From positions 1-39,934 of the IMG/VR virus record IMGVR_UViG_3300045912_000487: a DNA stretch of 39,934 nt. The stretch is one strand, 5' to 3'. Under the pieces are notes generated by a model that was given only the letters and a program-made list of their open reading frames with translations, had not been told where the DNA came from and did no database searches. The position numbers and the translations under genes were made by a program. How positions within the stretch are numbered: the first letter of the stretch is position 1; each line of letters opens with the position of its first letter. Source of the stretch: a virus. Shown here piece after piece: positions 3,973 through 32,479 of the stretch.

Positions 3973-5082
3973 ATGGCCCTCCGCAAGCGCTGCAAGCATC
4001 CCCGCGACCGCTGGTCCCGGTGCGGCTGCGCCTGGTGGTGGGATGGCTACGTCGACGGCCGGCGCATCTACCGCAACGTCGGCCCCGACCGGGCCGAGGC
4101 CCGGCGCCTGGCGGCCGAGATCGAGGCCGACCGGCACAACGACCGCGCCCGCCCGATCCCCCGGGACCGCACGCTCGCGGCCGTCGGCGAGCGATGGCTC
4201 GACCACCTGGCCGAGCACGGTCGCCGCCGCCAGACCCTCATCGCCTACCGGACCGCCGCCAACGCGGTCGAGCGCTACTTCGGGCCGACCCGCGACGTGC
4301 GTCTGATCGACGAGGACGAGGTGATGCGCTTCGAGGCCGCCGCCTTCGCCAGCCGCCGCGGGCACGGCCCGGCTCTCCTCATGCAGGCCCTGCGCGGCAT
4401 CCTGAACCACGCCCACCGGGAGCGGATCATCCGCGCGGTGCCCCGCCCTCCGGCCTCGCGCCGGACCATCACGACGAGCCCGGACGTGCGGATGAGCCTG
4501 GCGGAGACCGAGGCCACCATCGCCGCGCTCCGGCCCGAGCACTGGCGCGACCTGGCCGAGGTGATCGTCCTCACGGGCCTGCGCATCGGCGAGGCTCTGG
4601 CGCTTCGGTGGGAGGACGTGGACCCCGCGGCCTGCCGGATCCGGGTCGTCCACTCGGCGGAGCAGCGCGGTCGCACCGACGCCCCGACCAAGACGCCCAA
4701 GAGCGCCCGTAGCCTGCGGGTCGAGCCCGCGGTGATCGACCTCATCCTGGCCCAGCCTCGCACCGAGGAGCGCGTCTTCCCGCGTCGCTACGCCGCGGCC
4801 CTGTCGGCGATCCGGCGGGCGATGATGCGGGCGGGCACCTACCGGCGCGACCGCGGCTGGCACTCCCTCCGGCATCAAAATGCCGCCCTCCGCAATGAAG
4901 CAGGGCAGTCGCTCAGAGACGCTGCGGCGGCGTTGGGCCATGGGGCTCACTTCGCGCAATCGCTTGCGTACGGCTGGGCGGCGGAGTCGAGGGAGGCTCC
5001 ACAACTGTCTGCGCTCAGACAGCCGACACCTCCCGCGGGCGGCGAGGGCCAGGGTTCCCGCGACGGGAACACCGGTCCTTAG
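3973..5082 (+). CDS. int: Tyrosine recombinase integrase
   Basis: 369 residues. Residues 1-40 hold a Cys/His-rich, Trp-rich arm-binding region (CKHP, CGCAWWW). Residues 66-155 look like the SAM-like core-binding domain. The catalytic domain follows, with R204 (TGLRIGEAL), K240/K243, H297-x2-R300 (HSLRH), H323 (LGHG) and the nucleophile Y333. This is the full set for site-specific integration and excision. It lies opposite to the surrounding early genes. The last roughly 22 codons are read antisense through the 3' end of a convergent HNH gene (68-bp overlap), and the tail after Y333 is unusually long at 36 residues. ATG 3973 has a weak GAGG site. Attachment-site cores were not identified. Confidence 0.93.
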   Translation: MALRKRCKHPRDRWSRCGCAWWWDGYVDGRRIYRNVGPDRAEARRLAAEIEADRHNDRARPIPRDRTLAAVGERWLDHLAEHGRRRQTLIAYRTAANAVERYFGPTRDVRLIDEDEVMRFEAAAFASRRGHGPALLMQALRGILNHAHRERIIRAVPRPPASRRTITTSPDVRMSLAETEATIAALRPEHWRDLAEVIVLTGLRIGEALALRWEDVDPAACRIRVVHSAEQRGRTDAPTKTPKSARSLRVEPAVIDLILAQPRTEERVFPRRYAAALSAIRRAMMRAGTYRRDRGWHSLRHQNAALRNEAGQSLRDAAAALGHGAHFAQSLAYGWAAESREAPQLSALRQPTPPAGGEGQGSRDGNTGP

Positions 5083-11535: not shown

Positions 11536-11785
11536 GGTTCTTTTGCTTCCGGGCCTCGCGGTCCCCGGTACCGTTCGAGTCGTGTGTGAACAGCGAGTCG
11601 ATCGACACCCCGTAGAGGCGGGCCAACCGCACGAGCGTGTCTGCGCGCGGCGACCACTTCCCGACCTCGGCGTTCTGCAACGTGGCGCGGGAGATCCCAG
11701 CGCGCTCGGCGGCTTCGACCTGGCTCAGCCCGCACGCCATGCGTGCGCGCCGCAGAAGGTCGGGTGAAATCGCCATGCTCGTCAT
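11507..11785 (-). CDS. Cro-like XRE-family repressor
   Basis: 92 residues. The HTH runs from about 8 to 62: ISPDLLRRARMACGLSQVEA, AERAGISRATLQNAEVGKWS, then TLVRLARLYGVSIDSLF. This is a classic XRE fold with the recognition helix ISRATLQN. The C-terminus is a basic tail (RKQKNRPTPAASRR). ATG 11785 lies 7 bases after a -10 box and has no Shine-Dalgarno, so a leaderless mRNA is likely; ATG 11776 is the alternative start. It is the first gene of the early operon and faces a two-HTH repressor gene across shared operators, the arrangement of a lysis/lysogeny switch. Confidence 0.88.
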   Translation of the reverse strand: MTSMAISPDLLRRARMACGLSQVEAAERAGISRATLQNAEVGKWSPRADTLVRLARLYGVSIDSLFTHDSNGTGDREARKQKNRPTPAASRR

Positions 11786-11792
11786 GTCGAGC

Positions 11793-11821
11793 AACCTAGG
11801 CCATAAAACCTCGGCTGTCAA
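11793..11821 (-). promoter_or_regulatory. Leftward early promoter (leaderless)
   Basis: On the minus strand, TTGACA at 11821-11816, a 17-bp spacer, and TAGGTT at 11798-11793. The expected start site coincides with ATG 11785, so the transcript would be leaderless. The spacer contains most of operator copy one, so repressor binding there would block it. It would drive the Cro-like gene and the whole early operon. Confidence 0.65.
11796..11814. promoter_or_regulatory. Operator candidate 1
   Basis: CTAGGCCATAAAACCTCGG at 11796-11814 is a direct repeat of operator 2, matching at 15 of 19 positions. Its dyad is degenerate compared with copy 2. It lies across the -10 and spacer of the leftward promoter, as expected of a repressor site. 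Confidence 0.6.
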
Positions 11822-11825
11822 GAAG

Positions 11826-11844
11826 CTAGGCCGAGAAATCTCGG
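11826..11844. promoter_or_regulatory. Operator candidate 2 with perfect palindrome
   Basis: CTAGGCCGAGAAATCTCGG at 11826-11844 contains the perfect inverted repeat CCGAGA-AA-TCTCGG (11831-11844). It sits exactly 30 bp from operator 1, close to three helical turns, so repressors could bind both on the same face of the DNA. It lies just upstream of the leftward -35. Confidence 0.65.
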
Positions 11845-11868
11845 TCGCGCTCGAACGGCCGATGGACT

Positions 11869-11874
11869 TAGGCT
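11869..11874 (+). promoter_or_regulatory. Candidate -10 box of rightward repressor gene
   Basis: TAGGCT lies 8 bases before ATG 11883. No Shine-Dalgarno precedes that ATG and no consensus -35 is visible. It mirrors the spacing of the leftward promoter (TAGGTT, 7 bases before its ATG), so a leaderless repressor mRNA is plausible. Confidence 0.4.
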
Positions 11875-11882
11875 TCGCCCCG

Positions 11883-12413
11883 ATGACGACGTTCGGCGAA
11901 CGGGTCAAGGCGCTGCGCAACGAGCGCGGCTGGACCCAGGAGGAACTCGCTCACCGCAGCGGGCTCTCGCGCGCCACGATTCAGAACCTCGAGGCAAGCA
12001 AGCATGCCCCGCGGCACGACTCGTTGCAGCGGCTCAGCGGCGCGTTCGATCTCAGCATCGCCGAGATCGTCAACGGCACGGTCTCCGAGGGGCCGCGGAG
12101 CACCGGCGCCGCTCCGAACTACGCCGCCTACTTCGCGGAGAACCTCGCCCGCATCATCGCGGAGCGCGATCTTTCCCAGCACTGGTTGGCGGCGCGGACC
12201 GGAATCCACTTCACGCACATCTCAGACTACTCCCGCGGCTCCCGCCGACCGGGGCTCAACAACGCCAAGCGCATCTCGGACGTGTTGAACGTCAGCCTGG
12301 ACTCGATGCTCCGTCCGGCGGCGGCGGCTCCGGGTGCGGCACCAGACGTAGATGAGCACCTGGCTGACCTGCTCTCGGACGAGCCGCCCGCGGAAGGGGA
12401 GGGGTCTCGCTAA
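11883..12413 (+). CDS. Repressor with two tandem XRE helix-turn-helix domains
   Basis: 176 residues. Domain one (about 3-60): FGERVKALRNERGWTQEELA, HRSGLSRATIQNLEASKHAP, then LSGAFDLSIAEIV. Domain two (about 80-142): FAENLARIIAERDLSQHWLA, ARTGIHFTHISDYSRGSRRP, then ISDVLNVSLDSML. An acidic tail ends the protein. Two DNA-binding domains in one chain could bind both half-sites or both operators as a monomer. It lacks a LexA/S24 peptidase domain, so induction would not be by RecA self-cleavage. ATG 11883 is preferred and ATG 11862 is possible. It is the only long rightward gene at the switch and is the likely lysogeny repressor. Confidence 0.85.
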   Translation: MTTFGERVKALRNERGWTQEELAHRSGLSRATIQNLEASKHAPRHDSLQRLSGAFDLSIAEIVNGTVSEGPRSTGAAPNYAAYFAENLARIIAERDLSQHWLAARTGIHFTHISDYSRGSRRPGLNNAKRISDVLNVSLDSMLRPAAAAPGAAPDVDEHLADLLSDEPPAEGEGSR

Positions 12414-12846: not shown

Positions 12847-12927
12847 TCAGCCGACGTTGATCACGCCGGCCAGGATGAGGACGAGCACCACGACGCCGCC
12901 CAGGACGAACATGGCCCAGCCGGGCAC
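12847..12927 (-). CDS. Micro-membrane protein (26 aa) at end of late operon
   Basis: GTG 12927 overlaps the holin-like stop (TAGTG). The product VPGWAMFVLGGVVVLVLILA then GVINVG is a single hydrophobic helix. As the last late gene, next to a holin candidate and endolysin, it may tune lysis timing, but this is inferred only from position. Confidence 0.55.
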   Translation of the reverse strand: MPGWAMFVLGGVVVLVLILAGVINVG

Positions 12928-13139
12928 TACCGCTCCTCGTCCGGGAAGGGCTCCGGCACGCCCAGCCCGTAGCCGCGCAGCTCCCTGACCGCGTAGGCGA
13001 CGAGCACGGGGATCGCGGCGCCGACGATCGGCCCGAACGCCCCGAACGTGCCCCAGTCGAAGTCGGCCGCCCACGCGGCGACGCTCGCGAGGATGACGCC
13101 CGCCAGCGCGAGCGCGGCGGCCTTGACCTTGGTGAACAT
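12927..13139 (-). CDS. Holin-like two-helix membrane protein
   Basis: 70 residues. Hydrophobic segments at 7-25 (AAALALAGVILASVAAWAA) and 35-52 (FGPIVGAAIPVLVAYAV) are joined by a short acidic turn, and the protein ends in an acidic, polar tail (PEPFPDEER). Size, topology and position right after the endolysin gene are those of small class II or III holins, which open the inner membrane to release the endolysin. An RBS-like GGAGG precedes ATG 13139. Confidence 0.7.
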   Translation of the reverse strand: MFTKVKAAALALAGVILASVAAWAADFDWGTFGAFGPIVGAAIPVLVAYAVRELRGYGLGVPEPFPDEER

Positions 13140-13148
13140 CCGGTCCTC

Positions 13149-13832
13149 CTAGTCGCGGTAGGCCCGGACGATCCGGGCCATGATGATGTCGCCGGGGCAT
13201 GCGGTCGCGTTCCCCGGCACCTCCCGGTGGCCGCGGAGCGAGCCGCCCCGGATGTCGTACTCCTCCATCAGCTCGTCGAAGGACGCCTGCTGGTGGTAGG
13301 TGATCGGCCCGTTGGTCACGAAGACCACGCCGAGCGTGTCGTTCGCGCCGCGGGCGTGCGCGCCCTCGGTCACTGAGACCTTCGTCGCGTGGCGGCCGAG
13401 GTAGCGGTTCCCTGAGGCGAAGATGCCGACGTGGTAGCCGATGTCCGACCAGCCCTTGACGTCCTGGTGATACGCCTGGAACGAGCGCCACACGGCCTTC
13501 TCCAGCTCGACCACCTTAGGGTCGACCGCGCCGAGCTTGCGCAGCGCCTTGCGGTACGCCTTGATCGCCCGGTTGTAGTCACGGATGACAGCCGAGATGC
13601 GCCGGCGGCGCTCGGCCTCCTCGGGGGTGCGGTGCGGACGGCGCCAGATCGCGTACCACTTGGCGCCGGGTCGCTTGGGCTTGGTCAGCTTGCGCCGCTC
13701 GGCGCGCCCGATCGGGGTCAGCTCAGACGCCGAGTAGTGGATCGTCGCCCGGCCGCCGTGGTTGGCAACCCCGCCGGTCGAGCGGGGAGACCGCAGGCCA
13801 GCCGCCTCGCGGCTATAGGTGGTGTAGCTCAT
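13149..13832 (-). CDS. Endolysin, N-acetylmuramoyl-L-alanine amidase (PGRP/Amidase_2)
   Basis: 227 residues. Zinc ligands: H32 (ATIHYSAS), H202 (GHRE) and C212 (TACPGD). The core motif WSDIGYHVGIF and the LGVVFVTNGP strand are typical of the family. It cuts the bond between muramic acid and L-alanine in peptidoglycan. Between the first His and the core is an unusual, strongly basic insertion of roughly 80 residues (RRPGAKWYAIWRR, RDYNRAIKAYRKALRKLG). ATG 13832 is chosen because it overlaps the preceding stop (ATGA). No signal peptide is present, so it needs the holin to reach its target. Confidence 0.9.
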   Translation of the reverse strand: MSYTTYSREAAGLRSPRSTGGVANHGGRATIHYSASELTPIGRAERRKLTKPKRPGAKWYAIWRRPHRTPEEAERRRRISAVIRDYNRAIKAYRKALRKLGAVDPKVVELEKAVWRSFQAYHQDVKGWSDIGYHVGIFASGNRYLGRHATKVSVTEGAHARGANDTLGVVFVTNGPITYHQQASFDELMEEYDIRGGSLRGHREVPGNATACPGDIIMARIVRAYRD

Positions 13833-14128
13833 GGGCCCTCCTCGATCTGTGGACATGTCTGGGCCAGCTCACCCCGCAGAACGCGCGCCTCGTCCAGCAG
13901 GCGATCGATCAGGCCCTCGATGCCGACGGCGACCGGCTCTTGGATCACGCCCTCGTAGTAGTCGATCTGGGCGTGGTTCCACGCGGCCAGGTCGCACACG
14001 AGGTCGCGGTTGGCCTGGGCGGTGTCCGCGAGCTGGACTTGGTGCAGCACGACCAGGGCGAGGATCAGGAGCACCAGGACGGCGAGCGCCCAGTGGACGA
14101 CGCGCGAGGGGACGGTGATGTGCCTCAC
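13829..14128 (-). CDS. Membrane-anchored lysis-region protein (99 aa)
   Basis: GTG 14128, coupled by GTGA. One transmembrane helix near residues 12-32 (WALAVLVLLILALVVLHQVQ) is followed by a soluble domain with two cysteines and helical content (DLVCDLAAWNHAQIDYYEGV, GLIDRLLDEARVLRGELAQT). The layout, an N-terminal anchor with a periplasmic helical part, resembles spanin-like or Rz-like proteins. The sequence is not diagnostic, and if the host is an actinomycete a spanin would be unexpected. Confidence 0.6.
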   Translation of the reverse strand: MRHITVPSRVVHWALAVLVLLILALVVLHQVQLADTAQANRDLVCDLAAWNHAQIDYYEGVIQEPVAVGIEGLIDRLLDEARVLRGELAQTCPQIEEGP

Positions 14129-14496
14129 GTCGGACCGCCCGCCAGGAGGGCCACGAGCATCCCCACCAGCCCTCCCGCCGCCGCCAGTGCGGCGACGGTT
14201 CCCGCGATCACCTTCCACGTGAGCCTGATCCCGCCCTGCTCACCCGAGCGCGTGAGGCGGGCGTCGTCGAGGTCGTCCACGATGCTCTCGATCGCGTCGA
14301 CCTTGCGCATCACGTGGTCGAGCTTGGTGCCCATGACGGCGACCGCGGTGACCAGGCCCTCGCGCTCGATCGTCCGCCGCCAGGCGTCGACGCCCCGGCG
14401 CCACTCGTCGACCGTCCCGCGCCAGCCCTCGATGCGGGCCAGGCGTTCCTCGACGCCCGGGTAGGGCGGCTCGTGCCGGGGAGGATCGCCGGTCAT
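14125..14496 (-). CDS. XhlA-like coiled-coil membrane protein
   Basis: 123 residues. A Pro-rich start is followed by a long helical region with Trp at regular spacing ([20 protein letters not shown]), then [20 protein letters not shown], and a C-terminal membrane helix ([20 protein letters not shown]). This coiled coil plus C-terminal anchor matches haemolysin XhlA-type proteins that partner holins. ATG 14496 overlaps the hydrolase stop. It probably takes part in lysis with the genes just downstream. Confidence 0.65.
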
Positions 14497-15581
14497 CCCG
14501 GCCTCCGCACGGCGATGTAGGAGGATCGGGCCGGCACGATCTGCACCCGGCCGCCGGTGCGCGGCGCCTCGATCACCTTCCCGTTGCCGACGTACATCTG
14601 GACGTGGCCGGTGCTCGGGAAGAGCAGGTCCCCCGGGCGCCAGGCGCCGCGGTTCTTGGTGTTCACCGCCTGGCCGACCTTGATCTGGTCGTACGTGGTG
14701 CGCGGCAGCTTCACCCCCGCCTTCGCCCAGGCGTACTGGACGAGCGATGAGCAGTCGAAGCCGATCGTGTTGGCCCCCTGGGCGAACCCGCGGGTCGGAC
14801 CGGACGGCGTCCCGCCGCCCCACGAGTACGGCACCCCGAGCTGTCCCCTGGCCGCGTTGATGACCTGGGCCGCGCTCGGGTCGGCGGGGCGGCCGGCCTG
14901 GGTCAGGCCGTCGAGGGCCGCCTGGCGTCCGGCGGGCGCGGGAGCTCCTGCCCGGCGCTGCTTGCGGGCCGCCTCCTGCTGGGCCGAGAGGTCGCGGCGG
15001 GCGCTGGCGAGACCGAGCAGCGTGGTCGGGCTCACCCCCTCGCGCGTCCCGGTCTCCTCGATCGCCTGAATCGCCGCCATCTGGAAGGCGCGGGGGTCGG
15101 CCGTAGCGGCTGGCCCGGCGGGGCTTGACGTTTTCGGCAAGCCGGAGGCCTGGCGGGGACGCCGGGGCCGGGCGGTGGCGGGACCTCCGGCGCCGCGGTA
15201 GTCCTTGGCGTATTGGAGCACCTTCGGCACGTAGGCTCGCGTCTCGGCGTAGGGCGGGATGCCGCCGTATCTGCGGACCGCGCCGGGGCCGGCGTTGTAG
15301 GCGGCCAGGGCCTTGCGCACGTCGCCACCGAAGGCGTCGAGCTGCTGGCGCAGGTAGCGCGCCCCGCCGCGGAGGTTCTGCGCCGGGTCCCAGACGTTGC
15401 GCACGCCCAGTCCGCGCGCGGTGGCAGGCATGAGCTGGGCGAGCCCCTGGGCGCCGGCGGGCGACCCGGCGCGCGGGTTCCAGCCGGACTCGGCCCGGAC
15501 GAGGCCGAGGAACACGGGAACCGGCACGCCCTCCTGGCGGGCGATGTTGGTGGCGAGGCGCTGGAGGTTGGGCGGGGCCAT
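14493..15581 (-). CDS. Bifunctional lytic transglycosylase / NlpC-P60 peptidase
   Basis: 362 residues. The N-terminal SLT domain has catalytic E31 (RAESGWNP), [12 protein letters not shown] and [12 protein letters not shown]. The C-terminal NlpC/P60 domain has C277 in [12 protein letters not shown] and H326 in [10 protein letters not shown]. The two join through a Pro/Ala linker of about 110 residues. One domain cuts the glycan strand, the other the peptide. Such enzymes are usually virion-borne and open the wall during DNA entry; the location at the end of the ejection-protein genes fits. The linker carries the 20-bp repeat at 15123-15142, read as LPKTSS (residues 149-154). Confidence 0.9.
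15123..15142 (-). repeat. 20-bp repeat, copy 1 (inside transglycosylase linker)
   Basis: Exact copy of GCTTGACGTTTTCGGCAAGC on the + strand. The arms GCTTG/CAAGC and CG/CG flank a TTTT centre with one mismatched pair. It is identical to the copies at 32656-32675 and 39759-39778. Here it falls in the interdomain linker and encodes LPKTSS on the minus strand. Confidence 0.9.
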
Positions 15582-21311: not shown

Positions 21312-21958
21312 GTCCTCCCGACGCGGATGGGGGCGGCGGATATCGAGCGCTCGGTCCACCACCCAGAATCCGCCGGGTCCTGCACCTTGTATTTGCACGT
21401 CAGCGTCACCGCGCCGAGACCGAGCTTCCGCTTCTCGCGGTAGCCGTGAATCGAGGTGTGACTGAACGTCCCTGAGGGCCCGGTGTGAGTGTCGAGCGCA
21501 TCGGCGTCGACCGCCCCCGTCGAACCGATGTCGTAGGACATCCAGTTCTCCTTGTTCGGGGTGCCCGAGTGGGGTCGCGCGCCGATCTTCACGTCGTAGT
21601 CGCCGGGCAGGGGGAGGGTGATAGAGGGGCCGACCGTGGCGAGGTCCCCGTAGCCAGTCGCGCCCGTCCGCTGTTCGCTGTTCGGGACGAGGGCGAACAG
21701 CGGCACCTGATTCCCGACCGCCTCCCAGCGATACACGCTCGGCGCGTTCGTGCGGAACCGGAAGTGCCACACGATCCCGTTGGTCGAGTCGGCCAGGTAG
21801 TAGACCTCGTCGCCATCCTGCGGAGCGACCGGCAGGTCCGTGACGAGAGGCGGCCGCACGGCCGCCAAGAGCCCGCGCCGCACCGAGGCCATCACCGCCG
21901 GATCGCGCAGGCCCGCGACGATCTCCTCGCGCATCGGGGTGTCGGGCCAGCGGGTCAC
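21308..21958 (-). CDS. Beta-rich virion protein (216 aa)
   Basis: GTG 21958 overlaps the nozzle-like gene stop (GTGA). After a helical start, residues 45-216 look like beta sandwich: DEVYYLADSTNGIVWHFRFR, PSITLPLPGDYDVKIGARPH, AVTLTCKYKVQDPADSGWWT. It resembles small tail or head-surface proteins of many phages that have a jelly-roll or Ig-like fold. The exact role is unknown. Confidence 0.65.
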   Translation of the reverse strand: MTRWPDTPMREEIVAGLRDPAVMASVRRGLLAAVRPPLVTDLPVAPQDGDEVYYLADSTNGIVWHFRFRTNAPSVYRWEAVGNQVPLFALVPNSEQRTGATGYGDLATVGPSITLPLPGDYDVKIGARPHSGTPNKENWMSYDIGSTGAVDADALDTHTGPSGTFSHTSIHGYREKRKLGLGAVTLTCKYKVQDPADSGWWTERSISAAPIRVGRT

Positions 21959-24000
21959 AGGGGCCTCCGGGAGCGCCGCAGGGTCAGGCCGATCCGGGTG
22001 ATCTCGGTCTTCTGCTCAGTCGTCTGGGTGGCGGTCTTGGTGAGCCGGACCTGGTGCAGGGCGGCCTTCGCCCCCACATCGTGCACGTAGGGCTTGGTCA
22101 GATCGGCGTTCTTGGAGGCCATCGAGGACAGGTTGGTCACGATCTCGGCGTCCGAGTCGAGCGCCTGCTTGGAGGAGACGAGCCCCCCGAGCGTCGAGCC
22201 CGAGCCGCCCGTGTCGTACAGGTTGGCCTCGATCGCCACCTCGAGCAGGCGCTCGTCCACGTCGGCGCCGGCCTCGCGGGCAAGGCGGGCCGAGCCGTTC
22301 ATCTCAAGCACCGGGCTGGTCCCGTCGTCGTCGCGGGCCGGGCCGGTGCCGTCGAGCGCCGGGCCGTAGTCGAGCACCCGGCCCTGGTCGAGGTCCTGGA
22401 CGGCCAGGATCCGGTCCGCCTCGCCTGCCACGCGCGAGCTGAACATGTAGCGGGGCTCGTGGTTCGAGATCGGCCCGAGCCAGCGCGGGTTGAAGCGGCC
22501 GCCCTCGTCGAAGGGGTAGACGTACCAGCACCGCTTCGTGCCGCCGTTTCCGACCGACAGGTAGACGACCAGCACCCCGTCCTTCTCGCCGATCACGCAG
22601 CGGTCGGTCGCGGGGTCGAAGGCGGCCGCCATCTGCTGCCACTCCCGGGTGACCTTCCCGGCCGTCAGCCCCCGCACCCGCCCGCCCGCGTAGACCCAGA
22701 CGTCCTCCGACCCGCCCCAGACCGGGCCGATCGAGAGCGTGTGGGCCGAGCGGATGTCCAGGCACCCCGCGCCCTCGCCGCCGGGGAGCATGGCCTGGTC
22801 GAGCGCCCCGTAGACCCCGTAGATCCCGTAGGCGTTGCGGCGCTTCAGGACGATCAGGGGGTTCTCCGAGGGGAGCAGCGCCACGCACTCGTCGGCGTCG
22901 TTGGGCGAGGGGACGTCGATGAAGTCCATCAGGAAGTCGAGGTGGTTCTCGGACTCGTTGACCGGCTCTGTCGACGGGAGGGCAAACCCCGGGTAGGTAC
23001 CGATGTTCCACCCCTGGGGCCCTACGTACACTCGGCTTTTGTGCTGAGCCACACCAGTGCCCCAGAGGGAGTCCTTGTGCGAGGCGACGTCCTTGAATGG
23101 GCACTTGCGCACGATGCTGTAGCTCGACTTCGTGGTGAGGTTCGGCGAGTAGTTGGTATCCCAGGTGATGCTCGTGTCGCTGCCGACCGCGTTGATCTCT
23201 GAGCACTTGGGGTTCGGGGAGCCGCCGAACGGGATGATGAGAAGGCAGTCGCGCTCGGGCTGGGTCGTGAGGATCGAGATGTCCGAGTTCCACTTGGTCC
23301 CGTATCCGGTCACCGTCGAACCAGAGGTCGTCACCGTTCCGGCGTCGTAGATCGAGACGACGGGAGCACTCACACCGGTCAGGCTCGGCGCGATCGTGAC
23401 GACGCTCGCCGAACTCGACCGTAGGGCTTCCAGCGTGAGAACCGATGTCGTCGCCGCGACGATCTTCTTGGAGGAGTGGAACTTCGCGGAGGGGTAGACG
23501 AACGCCCCGACATCGGGCGGGACCGAGAACACGACATCGCGGATCGTCGCCTCACCATCGGTCGTGGTCCCGGTGAGGTCGCTCGCGGTCCCGGCCGAGG
23601 CGGCCCCGGCGTAGCGGCGCATCGGCGTCAGGCCGTCCTGCGCGCACCACAGAAGCTCATCGTTGTAGACCGCGCGCGGCAGGTACACGACCGAGCCCGC
23701 GAACAGGGCAGTACCCGCCGAGGCGCTGTTGTGGATGAAAAGGTCGCCGTCGTCGTCTCCGGTGACCGTCCTCGTCACGCCGGCCAGGACGAACTTGTTG
23801 CGCGCCACCGCCACGAGGTTGTCGGCCACGTCGGCGGTCGTGCCGTCGTAGCGCCAGCCGCGGCGCTGGCGGATGAGCCCCTGGGGCATGATCGCGTCGG
23901 CCCCGCGCTCCAACGCCCGCAGCGGGAGCTGATGGGCCGGAAGGTCCGTGACCACCCCGTCCGAGCCGGGGCGCTCGATCCACAGCGTGCGGCGCGGCAT
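21955..24000 (-). CDS. Tail nozzle-like protein (T7 gp12 / P22 gp10 type)
   Basis: 681 residues, starting at ATG 24000 in a TGATG overlap. It is almost all beta, with repeated aromatic-glycine strands (VVYLPRAVYNDELLWCAQDG, KSRVYVGPQGWNIGTYPGFA, VWVYAGGRVRGLTAGKVTRE, CWYVYPFDEGGRFNPRWLGP), as in beta-propeller or nozzle proteins. N-terminal LPAHQLPLRALERGADAIMP is typical of nozzle or stabilisation proteins that start by binding the adaptor. It follows the adaptor gene by one gene, as nozzle follows adaptor in T7-like phages. Assignment is by size, composition and order. Confidence 0.6.
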   Translation of the reverse strand: MPRRTLWIERPGSDGVVTDLPAHQLPLRALERGADAIMPQGLIRQRRGWRYDGTTADVADNLVAVARNKFVLAGVTRTVTGDDDGDLFIHNSASAGTALFAGSVVYLPRAVYNDELLWCAQDGLTPMRRYAGAASAGTASDLTGTTTDGEATIRDVVFSVPPDVGAFVYPSAKFHSSKKIVAATTSVLTLEALRSSSASVVTIAPSLTGVSAPVVSIYDAGTVTTSGSTVTGYGTKWNSDISILTTQPERDCLLIIPFGGSPNPKCSEINAVGSDTSITWDTNYSPNLTTKSSYSIVRKCPFKDVASHKDSLWGTGVAQHKSRVYVGPQGWNIGTYPGFALPSTEPVNESENHLDFLMDFIDVPSPNDADECVALLPSENPLIVLKRRNAYGIYGVYGALDQAMLPGGEGAGCLDIRSAHTLSIGPVWGGSEDVWVYAGGRVRGLTAGKVTREWQQMAAAFDPATDRCVIGEKDGVLVVYLSVGNGGTKRCWYVYPFDEGGRFNPRWLGPISNHEPRYMFSSRVAGEADRILAVQDLDQGRVLDYGPALDGTGPARDDDGTSPVLEMNGSARLAREAGADVDERLLEVAIEANLYDTGGSGSTLGGLVSSKQALDSDAEIVTNLSSMASKNADLTKPYVHDVGAKAALHQVRLTKTATQTTEQKTEITRIGLTLRRSRRPL

Positions 24001-24650
24001 CAGCGACCCGTCCTTCTGGCCCACTCGGCACGGGCCGCCATCGCCTGCTCGCGCATCTGGTCCCGCACGGCGGGCTCGGCGTGGAGGAACTGGCGCCGCC
24101 AAACCCGGGCGGGGCGCGTGTTCCACTTGCCCGCCCCCGATCCGAAGACCGAGAGCTGGCGCACGGCCTTGACCTGGTGCGGGTAATCGCCGGGGTCGCG
24201 CTCCTCGCGCACGCGCGCAGGCGGCATCCGGTGGCCGTAGAGCCGGGCCGTGTAGATCGGAAGGAGATCGCGCGCGACGGCCTCGGCCGCGCCCTCTTCC
24301 CAGGAGAGCGGGCCGCTGCCGGGATCGTGGACCTGCCCGTCGGCCTGTCCTGAGTGGGGGTTGCGGCCCCACTGCATCTGGTGAAGGCCCTCGTGCAGGA
24401 GCTGCCGGGCGGCGCGGACCTGCCCCTGGTCGAGTCTGCCGCGCGTCCCGTACCGGGCGGCGAGCGACTCGATCCCGGGGCGCCCGGCCGGTCCGAACCC
24501 GACGACGCCGGCCTGCGCATAGGCGTCTGGCATGTTCGGCACGTCGCCGTAGGCGACCGAGAAGTCCCGAACGGGGAAGCCGACCTGGGTGAGCCAGTTG
24601 CGGGTGTGGGCCGCGAGCTCGTTGACGGGAGGAGGGACGGGGTAGGTCAT
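24000..24650 (-). CDS. Putative HEXXH zinc metalloprotease in tail module
   Basis: 216 residues from ATG 24650 (ATGA coupling). The motif LLHEGLHQM gives H86-E87-x2-H90, the zincin active-site pattern. About 28 residues on, SWEEGAAEAVARDL (E118/E119) supplies a plausible third ligand or catalytic acid. Before it, AYGDVPNMPDAYAQAGVVGF and GRLDQGQVRAARQ are compatible with a small M-type peptidase. It lies between adaptor and nozzle genes, so it may be a virion-borne protease or a maturation enzyme. Activity is inferred from the motif only. Confidence 0.65.
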   Translation of the reverse strand: MTYPVPPPVNELAAHTRNWLTQVGFPVRDFSVAYGDVPNMPDAYAQAGVVGFGPAGRPGIESLAARYGTRGRLDQGQVRAARQLLHEGLHQMQWGRNPHSGQADGQVHDPGSGPLSWEEGAAEAVARDLLPIYTARLYGHRMPPARVREERDPGDYPHQVKAVRQLSVFGSGAGKWNTRPARVWRRQFLHAEPAVRDQMREQAMAARAEWARRTGR

Positions 24651-25288
24651 CGCCCGAACCCCCGCAGGAACACCTTCGACGCCCCCGCGCCCATCCGCCG
24701 GTTCATGTAGGCCCGCAGGCCCTCGCGCAGCTCGGCCGTCGCGGCCGCCGCTCCGCGGGCGAGGTCGAAGTCCTCCTCCGACTGGGCGATCCGGTAGACC
24801 GCCTCCTCGGCGATGAGGTCGTGGAACTCGGTGGGCATCTCGGACGGGGTGTCTCCGTCGGCAGAAAGCGCCACCGGGCGCTGGACGTAGTGGATCGTCG
24901 CGGCCGCCGTGACGGTCGTGGTCGGGACGGGCCACACGCGGATCGTCGTGGAGGCCCCGTCGACGACGTACACCTGCGGCCCGGTCGAGAGCGTCGTGCC
25001 CGCGGCCTGGGCGGCGCGGTACTGGGCCAGCTCGGCGCGCGTGATGGGCTGGAGGACGTAGGTGCCCTGGCGGATCGAGAGGATCTCGGTCACGTCGGCC
25101 GGGATGGTCACGGTCTCCGTGTTCGCGGTGAAGTTCAGCGAGGCCGTGGCCTCAAGGAGCCGGAACTCGGCCGCCAGGCGGTAGCGGGCCTGGTTGATCG
25201 CCGTGTTGATCTGGGTCGTCTTGGCCGCGTCGCCGGTCGAGATCGTGAGGCGGTCCCGGACGTAGGTGCGAAGCTCCCCGTAGTTCAC
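24647..25288 (-). CDS. Head-to-tail adaptor, T7 gp11-like
   Basis: 213 residues. It begins MNYGELRTYVRDRLTISTGD, followed by INTAINQARYRLAAEFRLLE, then strand-rich TVTIPADVTEILSIRQGTYV and TIRVWPVPTTTVTAAATIHY, then FHDLIAEEAVYRIAQSEEDF and a long helix. This helix-strand-helix layout with a dodecamer-type N-terminal helix bundle is that of podovirus adaptor (tail tubular A) proteins. ATG 25288 overlaps the previous stop (ATGA). Confidence 0.75.
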   Translation of the reverse strand: MNYGELRTYVRDRLTISTGDAAKTTQINTAINQARYRLAAEFRLLEATASLNFTANTETVTIPADVTEILSIRQGTYVLQPITRAELAQYRAAQAAGTTLSTGPQVYVVDGASTTIRVWPVPTTTVTAAATIHYVQRPVALSADGDTPSEMPTEFHDLIAEEAVYRIAQSEEDFDLARGAAAATAELREGLRAYMNRRMGAGASKVFLRGFGR

Positions 25289-26711: not shown

Positions 26712-27992
26712 CTACGCCTCCTCGGCCCCGTCCAGAAGCTCGGCCACCTCGGCGACGAGCAGGTCGGTGTTCACCGCGACCTCGCGCGCACGCTCGGCGT
26801 AGCCGGCCTCGCGCCGCTCCTCGAAGCGGGCGGCGAGCGCCAGCGCCCGGCCCTGCTGCTGGGCCATCCGGTGCAGCACCCGCTCGGACAGGGCCGACCG
26901 CAGCTCGGGGCTGATCCGGTGCGGGTTGGGGAGCGGCGGAGGCGGGGGGGGCTCGGGCTCGGGATCCGGCGGGGGCGGCGGCGGGGGCGCGCCCTGCGGC
27001 TGGATCCAGGCCGGGCCGTATCCGAGGGCCGGAGAGCCGGGCCGCAGGCGGAAGTCGCCGCCCGCCGGGTCGGTGAAGCCGGGGTCGGCGTCGCCGGTCA
27101 CGCAGTCGACGAGCGCCACCCGGTCCCCGATGCCGGGCTGCACGAGCTGGGCGGTCCCGCCGAAGCGCGTGAGGAAGCACCACTCCACGACGTTCCCGAC
27201 CGGGCGGGGGGCGCCGGAGGGCGCGTAGGACTCGATCAGGTAGCCGCCGCCGCCGGACTGGCCCCCAGGGCGGCCGTGGCCGGCCCCGATGATGGAGCGG
27301 GCGAGGCGGTTGCGCTCGCTCGCTCCGGTCAGGCCGGCCGAGGGGTTCGCGCTGGCGTTCTCGGCCGAGAAGGCCGCCGCCGATCCGCAGCCCCAGATGA
27401 CCAGGCCGGAGAAGTCGCCCTCGTCGCAGTTGGGGTAGAGGTGCAGGGGGAACCAGCCCGCGTCGTAGATGAGCGAGTCGGTGATGCGCGGGCGCAGGCA
27501 GTGCTTCAGGTAGAAGGGGTGGTCGTGCGTGTCCTTCCACTTGCCCTGGAGGTGCACGCGCCCCTCCGACCACACGAAGCCCTCGAAGGGTTGCGAGGTG
27601 CTGGGCCCGAGCGGGGTGAGCATGATCCGGCGCGAGCCGTCGGTCGGCCGGTCGACCGCGACGCAGCCGAGGAAGCCGACGTCCCGGCCCGAGAGGACCG
27701 CGCCGTTGATGCCGCGCCGCTCGCGCGTGTCCCAGAAGATGCCCTCGTAGGTCACGCCGGAGTACGAGCCGCCCAAGAAGTCCGTGACCCGGACCTGGAA
27801 GCCCTGGCCGAGGTGCCCACGCGTGTCCTTGACGGCGCGGCCGGGCTCGCCGTGGTCGAACGCTCGGTAGGTGAGCCCCGACTTGCGCGGGAGGCTCGGG
27901 TACGTGCCCAGGCCCATGAGGATGACGTCGCCCGCCTGGGCGGCGGAGACGACCGAGGCGATGGTGCTGGGGGTGGCGGGGCGTTCGGCCAT
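26712..27992 (-). CDS. Beta-helix tail spike with polyproline linker
   Basis: 426 residues. Residues 1-300 show pectate-lyase-like right-handed beta-helix rungs with repeated short strands (GDVILMGLGTYPSL, VRVTDFLGGSYSGVTYEGIF, GAVLSGRDVGFLGCVAVDRP, IYDAGWFPLHLYPNCDEGDF, SGLVIWGCGSAAAFSAENAS). Then comes a linker of almost pure Pro and acidic residues (PPPPPPPDPEPEPPPPPP), then a C-terminal helix (LRSALSERVLHRMAQQQGRA ... LLVAEVAELLDGAEEA) likely to trimerise. Such spikes bind or cut host surface glycans. No catalytic residues were identified. The order of helix and linker is unusual, with trimeriser at the end. Confidence 0.8.
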   Translation of the reverse strand: MAERPATPSTIASVVSAAQAGDVILMGLGTYPSLPRKSGLTYRAFDHGEPGRAVKDTRGHLGQGFQVRVTDFLGGSYSGVTYEGIFWDTRERRGINGAVLSGRDVGFLGCVAVDRPTDGSRRIMLTPLGPSTSQPFEGFVWSEGRVHLQGKWKDTHDHPFYLKHCLRPRITDSLIYDAGWFPLHLYPNCDEGDFSGLVIWGCGSAAAFSAENASANPSAGLTGASERNRLARSIIGAGHGRPGGQSGGGGYLIESYAPSGAPRPVGNVVEWCFLTRFGGTAQLVQPGIGDRVALVDCVTGDADPGFTDPAGGDFRLRPGSPALGYGPAWIQPQGAPPPPPPPDPEPEPPPPPPLPNPHRISPELRSALSERVLHRMAQQQGRALALAARFEERREAGYAERAREVAVNTDLLVAEVAELLDGAEEA

Positions 27993-30259: not shown

Positions 30260-30822
30260 CAGAGGTCACCCCCCTGCCCCTCGGGGATCGGGGCCGAGAC
30301 CGGCGCGGCCGCCGGGGGCGGCTCCTCCGGCTCTGGGGCGCTGTCGCCCAGCATCGCCTCGGTGATGGCCCGCACGACCATCTTGCGACGGCGGTGGGCC
30401 ATCTCGTAGCGCCACGCCTGCTCCAGGTCGATCACGCCGGCGGCGATCCACTCGCCGATCTGGCGCACCCCGGCCTCGTCCCAGCCCTGGCGCGGGGCGG
30501 TGTTGAGCGGCTGAGTCGCGGCGGACATCGCGCCCTCGACGATCCGCGGGCCCATGCCCTGGGGCGGGATGGCTCGGAAGTCGTCTTCCAGGCCGATGTG
30601 CCCCAGCCGCCAGGCGTTCGAGGCCTTGATGTCATCGAGCCAGTCGGCGGGGGCGCTCGCGCGGTGGTTCTCGAACCGGAGCATCTTGCCGGTGCCCGGC
30701 ACGCGGTACTTGCCGTGCCGGGCGTCGACGATCTCCTCCGGGGGCTCCAGCCGGACCCGGTGCCGCTCGTAGCGGCTCATGAGCCGGATCGTGGGCGCCT
30801 CGGTCATGGTCGTTGCCGTCAC
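30259..30822 (-). CDS. Head-region hypothetical protein (187 aa)
   Basis: GTG 30822 overlaps the HNH stop (GTGA). The sequence has a conserved-looking centre: PEEIVDARHGKYRVPGTGKM, LRFENHRASAPADWLDDIKA, SNAWRLGHIGLEDDFRAIPP. A helical part (EWIAAGVIDLEQAWRYEMAH) and a Pro/Ala-rich acidic tail follow. Lying after the capsid gene, it may be a head-completion or neck protein. No family was recognised. Confidence 0.7.
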   Translation of the reverse strand: MTATTMTEAPTIRLMSRYERHRVRLEPPEEIVDARHGKYRVPGTGKMLRFENHRASAPADWLDDIKASNAWRLGHIGLEDDFRAIPPQGMGPRIVEGAMSAATQPLNTAPRQGWDEAGVRQIGEWIAAGVIDLEQAWRYEMAHRRRKMVVRAITEAMLGDSAPEPEEPPPAAAPVSAPIPEGQGGDL

Positions 30823-31325
30823 TGCGGCATCACCTCCTCGATCTCGATCCCGTCCGCCCAGAAGCGCTCGCGGGTTCGGATGCGATGGCAGTTCGAGCAG
30901 ACGACCTCGCACTTGGCGATCTCGCGCTGAAGCGTCGAGAGGGCCGCGCCGCGCGCCATCAGGATCGACACCGCGGATTCCTTCTCCCCGGTGACGTGGT
31001 CGAAGTCCATGCAGACCGGATCGAAGCGCTGGCCACAGTCGGCGCAGGGCGTCTCGGCCTTGATCGCGTACACGTACTCGCGCGCCTTGCGCCTCCCGGT
31101 CTCCCGGTGGCGCTCCTTGGCGGCGCGGTAATCCTCGGGATTCTCCTCGCGCCAGCGGCGCATGCGGTCCCGCACTCGCTGGCGCTCCCCCTCTGGGTCG
31201 AGCGTGCGCCGCTTGGCCGCGTACTCCTTGGACTTGCGACGCTTGCGCTCGCGGTACTCGGGGTCGGCGTACCGACGCTTGTGATACTCGCGCTGATACG
31301 CCTTCTGAGTCTCATTGAGGGCCAT
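30819..31325 (-). CDS. Basic HNH-type endonuclease inside head cluster
   Basis: 168 residues. The N-terminal 90 are extremely basic helix (KRRYADPEYRERKRRKSKEY, RQRVRDRMRRWREENPEDYR), probably wrapping DNA. The C-terminal nuclease-like part has CADCG, DFDHVTG, then CSNCHRIRT, the Cys-flanked DH...H metal site of HNH enzymes. It interrupts the structural genes between capsid and head-region genes, two bases from the capsid stop, and so looks like a free-standing homing endonuclease. ATG 31325. Confidence 0.85.
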   Translation of the reverse strand: MALNETQKAYQREYHKRRYADPEYRERKRRKSKEYAAKRRTLDPEGERQRVRDRMRRWREENPEDYRAAKERHRETGRRKAREYVYAIKAETPCADCGQRFDPVCMDFDHVTGEKESAVSILMARGAALSTLQREIAKCEVVCSNCHRIRTRERFWADGIEIEEVMPQ

Positions 31326-31327
31326 GG

Positions 31328-32479
31328 CTAGAAGCTGACGCCGTAGCCCTTGGCGTGAACTTTGTCCAGGGAGAACTGGAAGGTCGCCTCGGTGATGAAC
31401 TCGTCCTTGGTGCCGTCCTCGCTGTTGTCCTGGATGTTCTGCCGGAGCTTGGTGCCCCGGCCGCGCAGGGGCCGGTACTTCATCCCGTCGGGGTCGACGA
31501 TGTAGAAGTAGCCCTCGTAGCCGAGCTCCAGGAGCGGGTGGTCGACGACCTCAAGGCGCGCCGACCCGGCGATGTAGGTGGAGATGTCCATCCCGTAGGT
31601 CGCCGAGGCCTTCTCGTTGACCTGGAGCTTCGCCAGCCCCCACGAGTTGATCGTGTTGATGACGTTGCTGGAGGCCAGGAGGATCTTCCGCGTGCGGCCC
31701 GGGCGGACCGAGTAGCGGAAGGCGTCCGAGACGATGTCGATGAACTCGGACTCGGTCATCGTCCCGGCGAGGTCGGTCACGTTGGTCGTGATCGTCTCGT
31801 CGAGGCCGCCGGCCGAGCGGATCGGCTTGGCCCCGGTGGAGGTGTCCTCCTTCTTGCGGCCGTGCAGCGCGATCTCCTCCCAGCGCCGGGCGTGCTCCTC
31901 GCCCACCTTGCGCTGCTGGTAGCGCCGCTCAGAGCCGTGGTAGTGCTTGACCGCCTCGTTGGTGCCGGTGATGTGGACCGTGTGCTTCACGATCTGGGTG
32001 AAGTTGGTCCGCTCGACCTTCACCGTGTGGCGCGCCTCGGGGGCGACGTCGCCCTCCATCTCTGCCGTCGAGAGGTTCAGGAGGTAGGCGTTGTCGGCCG
32101 CGGCGGCGGCAGTGCCGGCCCACGCGCGGGTGACCGTCAGATCGTTGCCCGCGACGGCGGTGACGCGGATGACCTCGTCGGTCGTGACGATCTTGACCAG
32201 GTCGCCGGCCCGGAAGTACGAGCCGTTGTCGACCGTGATCGTGGTCTGGACGTTCGTGATCGCGCCGTTGAGCTGATCCCAGTAGGGCATCGGCTCGTCC
32301 TCCATCCAACGGACCGTGGTCGCGTCGGCGGGGTCGGCGCCCATCCGCTTGGTGATGATCTTCATCATCGGGGCGCCCGGCGGGTCGTACTGCATGACCT
32401 CGGTGCCCATGTCGATGACGAGCTGGGCGGCGAGAACCTCGTTTGTGGCGAGGTTTCCGCTTCGGATCGTGGGTGGCAT
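31328..32479 (-). CDS. Major capsid protein, DUF5309 (SU10-like) family
   Basis: 383 residues, in the usual size range. Recognisable family blocks: IVKHTVHITGTNEAVKHYHG, YQQRKVGEEHARRWEEIALH, then TGAKPIRSAGGLDETITTNV, IVSDAFRYSVRPGRTRKILL and the C-terminal EATFQFSLDKVHAKGYGVSF. These match the HK97-fold capsid family known from SU10 and related podoviruses. Scaffold and portal genes lie upstream as expected. ATG 32479 has an ideal GGAGG. A 208-base leader precedes it, the longest gap in the late block. Confidence 0.88.
   Translation of the reverse strand: MPPTIRSGNLATNEVLAAQLVIDMGTEVMQYDPPGAPMMKIITKRMGADPADATTVRWMEDEPMPYWDQLNGAITNVQTTITVDNGSYFRAGDLVKIVTTDEVIRVTAVAGNDLTVTRAWAGTAAAAADNAYLLNLSTAEMEGDVAPEARHTVKVERTNFTQIVKHTVHITGTNEAVKHYHGSERRYQQRKVGEEHARRWEEIALHGRKKEDTSTGAKPIRSAGGLDETITTNVTDLAGTMTESEFIDIVSDAFRYSVRPGRTRKILLASSNVINTINSWGLAKLQVNEKASATYGMDISTYIAGSARLEVVDHPLLELGYEGYFYIVDPDGMKYRPLRGRGTKLRQNIQDNSEDGTKDEFITEATFQFSLDKVHAKGYGVSF

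Follow-up and report, generated by a model that had tools for sequence, protein, structure and literature searches.

A putative standalone gluzincin-like metallopeptidase encoded between the adaptor and a nozzle-like gene of an SU10-capsid podovirus

Results

The locus and its setting

We analysed a stretch of 39,934 nucleotides (here called the window; positions 1 to 39,934 of IMG/VR virus record IMGVR_UViG_3300045912_000487) with a GC content of 72.7%. Its structural module encodes TerL, an SU10-type portal, an SU10-type capsid protein, an SU10 adaptor, a putative metallopeptidase and a tail protein. The main genes are listed here.

24000..24650, minus strand: putative zinc metallopeptidase gene, 216 aa (open reading frame, overlapping start and stop junctions, coding-like GC3)
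24647..25288, minus strand: upstream neighbour, head-tail adaptor (SU10_adaptor; PF24175, E 2.6e-29)
21955..24000, minus strand: downstream neighbour, nozzle-like or tail protein, 681 aa (weak PHROG tail-fibre matches only)
31328..32479, minus strand: major capsid protein (SU10_MCP; PF17236, E 3.9e-41), the query for relatives
14493..15581, minus strand: bifunctional peptidoglycan hydrolase of the structural module, SLT + NlpC/P60 (PF01464, E 9.4e-26; PF00877, E 2.7e-22)
13149..13856, minus strand: type-2-amidase-like endolysin candidate (IHYSAS, IGYHVGIF, GHREVPGNATACPGD)

The metallopeptidase reading frame runs on the minus strand from an ATG at 24648-24650 to a TGA at 24000-24002. The adaptor stop overlaps its start (ATGA at 24647-24650), and its own stop overlaps the ATG of the 681-aa gene (CTGATG at 24000). 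Third-position GC is 0.90, matching the other genes of the window, and the codon GC profile is neighbour-like. Given the overlapping junctions at both ends and a GC3 like that found elsewhere, the 216-aa gene is real and translationally coupled. The first-pass annotation had placed it between tail adaptor and nozzle genes. The adaptor assignment holds, whereas the downstream protein resembles PHROG tail-fibre families only, and we infer its nozzle-like role from position and size.

Pfam gave no match for the endolysin candidate, which has an internal insertion; a small holin-like membrane protein follows it (12927-13139, minus strand), forming a lysis cassette. An HNH endonuclease-like gene lies directly after the capsid gene (30819-31325, minus strand), and a probable spike-like protein (26712-27992, minus strand) has a weak DUF5123 match and a long proline-rich stretch ahead of the C-terminal part. 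A tyrosine integrase and a Cro/C1-type HTH protein are encoded on the other strand (3973-5082 and 11637-12413, plus strand), and the phage is therefore probably temperate.

The predicted zinc site

The translation bears out the observation that first drew attention to this gene, an HEXXH sequence at H86-H90 followed about 28 residues later by an acidic SWEEGAAEA. The two elements are as follows.

24381..24395, minus strand: HEGLH, residues 86-90, with predicted zinc ligands H86 and H90 and general base E87 (translation, pattern, model helix 75-96)
24258..24299, minus strand: EEGAAEAVARDLLP, residues 118-131, a helix with the predicted third zinc ligand, E118 or E119 (translation, model helix 114-138)

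The acidic segment begins S116-W117-E118-E119, residues 116-131 read SWEEGAAEAVARDLLP, and E118 lies 28 residues past H90. Among the 153 open reading frames of at least 150 aa in the window, HEXXH is present only in the metallopeptidase; the HEGLH pattern occurs once in the window and never in dinucleotide shuffles. When the residues of the 216-aa protein were shuffled, HEXXH alone arose in 1.3% of cases. Requiring E..A at 15-45 residues as well lowered this to 0.2%, and the full pattern of HEXXH with [DE]E.A.[DE]A.A arose in 0 of 200,000.

AlphaFold modelled the protein poorly from the single sequence (pLDDT 38.6). With 11 sequences the mean pLDDT rose to 56.5, a partial confidence, with the N-terminal half poor. 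The confident parts of this model are a HEXXH helix (75-96) followed directly by the helix with the glutamate pair (114-138), with block pLDDT values of 86 around HEGLH and 87 at 121-130. An N-terminal helix (9-22) was also modelled. Confidence was low at residues 143-191 and at 34-71 (pLDDT below 50 for the latter), and the three strands of the sheet that precedes the HEXXH helix in zincins did not resolve; the N-terminal region and the basic C-terminal half are poorly modelled and have no counterpart. Structure prediction, the check suggested at the outset, thus brought the two motifs into consecutive helices, but Foldseek and VIA searches with this weak model returned noise only and were uninformative as to a solved zincin structure. 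The published core of phage zincins is a HEXXH helix followed by a Glu-bearing helix (PMC5512222), and we counted the agreement in helix order in favour of a zincin.

Searches and look-alikes

The 216-aa protein had no significant match in Pfam, PHROG, NCBIfam or PDB sequences. No close relatives of the peptidase, adaptor or nozzle were found in IMG/VR, nor of the peptidase in GTDB contigs, and the INPHARED tblastn matches that were read were due to chance (one was antisense, another had no HEXXH). ImmA/IrrE peptidases (Peptidase_M78) have HExxH, a Glu about 27 residues later and text resembling A..F A..LL.P. This likeness is one of motif text; the 216-aa protein does not match the PF06114 model at E up to 10, and the family is absent from the Pfam scan. 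Nor did it match Peptidase_MA_2 (PF13485) up to the same E of 10. A four-sequence profile searched against PDB had NleC-type zinc proteases as all of its top four matches, at a non-significant E of 0.03-0.06.

A tblastn match of poor E-value, the Miltoncostaea oceani plasmid protein WP_217924841, aligns exactly over HE.LH, EE.A..A.A.DLLP and PARV..ER, with 34% identity over 107 columns. Its bit score is no better than those of chance matches lacking HEXXH and its E-value is non-significant, so the match carries weight through the coincidence of motifs and not through its score. A profile that included it found a second protein of the same plasmid (L087 ORF, E 0.012) with HEIFH...VEEAAVET, and both plasmid proteins keep the HExxH...EE..A architecture, sharing HE.[LF]H...EEAA..A with the 216-aa protein. 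Unlike the phage protein they are plasmid-borne and actinobacterial, and WP_217924841 has an N-terminal hydrophobic segment. A single 816-kb M. oceani plasmid thus encodes two divergent, unannotated zincin-like proteins (L014:7638-8315 and L087:1126-1851).

No stretch matched a tight DNA motif. A looser scan of IMG/VR gave 26 stretches, two of them useful (L015 and L018) and several of them polyvalent zincins or false HEXXH sequences in a transposase or terminase. L015 (C-terminal in a MuF-type minor head protein) and L018 (head-linked) share HE.[VL]H ... [IV]EE.ATE...AR with the 216-aa protein. However, their zincins are fused to or lie beside head genes rather than tail genes, and overall identity is 15-20%. 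The C-terminal zincin-like domain of the MuF-type protein (L015:495-2708; HEEVH...EEAATEAIAR) was missed by Pfam.

The window + Miltoncostaea profile matched standalone phage zincins at 61% probability (E 8.3e-5) and the MuF- and head-linked zincins at 42% (E 2.7e-4), compared with 1.3% for two non-zincin controls having the same DNA pattern (transposase and terminase by sequence). Its match to polyvalent-type zincins (L022, L024 and L036) was weak (2.3%), as was that of the 216-aa protein alone to the L015/L018 profile (1.1%). The EE pair and A121 are kept across the aligned look-alikes, some of which were picked by a pattern that includes the motif, so that motif conservation in those is not independent evidence.

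Taken together, the motif anatomy, the profile comparisons and the two bacterial look-alikes with these residues conserved support the zincin active site proposed by the first-pass annotation well; a confident fold is not among these supports. We therefore consider it highly probable that the protein carries a zinc site of the gluzincin type, and probable, by a somewhat smaller measure, that the predicted peptidase is catalytically active.

The slot after the adaptor in relatives

A major capsid protein profile recovered 47 related loci; the adaptor was located in 13, and 11 of these reach far enough to include the next genes. None of the 11 (capsid proteins 24-29% identical, adaptor identifiable) has a HEXXH protein in the slot after the adaptor, in agreement with the earlier statement that no such protease is standard there. 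The slot instead holds proteins that are fibre-like or small and helical, or a putative muramidase. Two closer relatives (L008 and L009), whose capsid proteins are 79-80% identical, stop short of the slot. The muramidase-like gene (L057:14379-14873; HEGGYVNNPNDPGGETNWGIS) lies a few genes past the adaptor. Since all 11 relatives lack HEXXH in the slot and hold other proteins there, the metallopeptidase gene is accessory cargo and not a core part of the SU10-type tail.

SU10 itself (a Kuravirus) has the same capsid, portal and adaptor families, and its adaptor gp11 precedes the nozzle gp17 (PMC9509320). In gene numbering, gp12 and gp16 lie between them and are fibres, and the paper on the SU10 tail does not mention a protease (PMC9509320).

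HEXXH proteins do occur elsewhere in the structural modules of related podoviruses; examples are EBPR podovirus 3 gp3, those of L041 and L044 near the terminase end, and giant proteins of VS-ABTNL-3 and Mel-JY34. At the terminase end, related podoviruses have in common a HEXXH protein other than the 216-aa one (L002:574-1698, L041:1308-2261, L044:2611-3579), with HE[IL]QHAVQ.REG.

Discussion

In phage polyvalent proteins no domain is commoner than the zincin-like peptidase domain (PMC5512222), and the N4 virion RNA polymerase contains an HExxH domain (PMC12633501). With these and the HEXXH proteins of related podoviruses in mind, the earlier view that tail or virion genes rarely carry such proteases is too strong. 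Phages often carry enzymes of this type; what is unusual is a separate gene for it between two tail genes. The zincin-like MPTase domains of polyvalent proteins (including N4 virion RNA polymerase C1) show the same order of helices, first the one with HEXXH and then one bearing the third-ligand Glu (PMC5512222). They too are encoded in virion gene modules, and L022, L024 and L036 share E-E-x-A-[AT]-[ED]-A text with the 216-aa protein. However, polyvalent zincins are domains of large multidomain proteins. Here the zincin is a standalone 216-aa gene in a tail operon and not part of a multidomain effector, and we do not count it among the polyvalent proteins.

We favour, at about even confidence, a standalone gluzincin-like metallopeptidase made late with the tail and cutting a phage virion or tail protein. 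Zinc would be coordinated by H86, H90 and E118 or E119, with E87 activating the water. The peptidase would be small and soluble, akin in kind to zincin domains that are usually fused to minor head or giant ejected proteins, and its gene would have been inserted as accessory cargo into the tail operon of a probably temperate podovirus with an SU10-type capsid. Its synthesis would be late and coupled to that of the adaptor and nozzle, and cleavage may take place during assembly or as virion proteins enter the host. For virion-linked phage zincins the published precedents are autoprocessing before packaging, as proposed for P1 DdrB, packaging in uncut form, as in the N4 RNA polymerase, and action as an injected effector (PMC5512222; PMC12633501). 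A small, separate, late, tail-coupled gene with no packaging domain is most simply read as one whose product processes a virion protein. The peptidase might act at the adaptor-nozzle junction, for example by cutting a tail or ejection protein and so triggering or licensing the opening of the nozzle and release of the genome, or it might be injected first and target the host, although we think this version improbable.

Next in our ranking, and clearly less likely, is delivery with the virion, the injected peptidase cutting a host regulator, a defence protein or a surface-synthesis protein in favour of infection or lysogeny. An effector role has been proposed for zincins that are fused to MuF and polyvalent proteins (PMC5512222), the cargo of the slot varies among relatives, this gene is lineage-specific, and the phage, with its integrase and HTH repressor, is probably temperate; yet the protein is small and standalone with neither a packaging nor a MuF domain, and a tail has little room inside for cargo. 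Digestion of the host surface, by which a tail enzyme would open a surface layer made of protein or the peptide cross-links of the envelope, ranks third and seems improbable. A position beside the adaptor and nozzle would suit it, as would the putative muramidase near the adaptor of the related phage L057, but this phage already encodes a virion-type SLT + NlpC/P60 enzyme and a separate amidase-like endolysin, which weakens any cell-wall or endolysin role. The 216-aa protein, moreover, has no receptor-binding or wall-binding domain and matches no peptidoglycan peptidase family. Of the functions suggested originally, surface digestion is thus the least favoured because dedicated wall enzymes exist, while virion maturation and delivery are both retained.

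It is also improbable, to a slightly greater degree, that the protein is a catalytically inactive or purely structural relative of the zincins, such as a tail decoration or chaperone. The poorly modelled halves that have no counterpart would fit such a protein, but the predicted catalytic and ligand residues are all present and are kept in the look-alikes, and relatives build their tails with no peptidase in this place. Least probable of all is that an unrelated helical protein carries HEXXH by chance: significant homology is absent and shuffling yields HEXXH by itself in 1.3% of cases, whereas the full motif, with its EE..A helix at gluzincin spacing, did not arise in any shuffle, proteins of the same architecture occur elsewhere, and neither of the non-zincin pattern controls aligns.

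The gene shows that SU10-capsid phages take up enzymatic cargo between adaptor and nozzle. Zincin domains are recurrent but almost untested in phage virion proteins, where they are usually buried in giant polypeptides. If it is active, the standalone 216-aa version would be a convenient tool for identifying the substrates of such peptidases.
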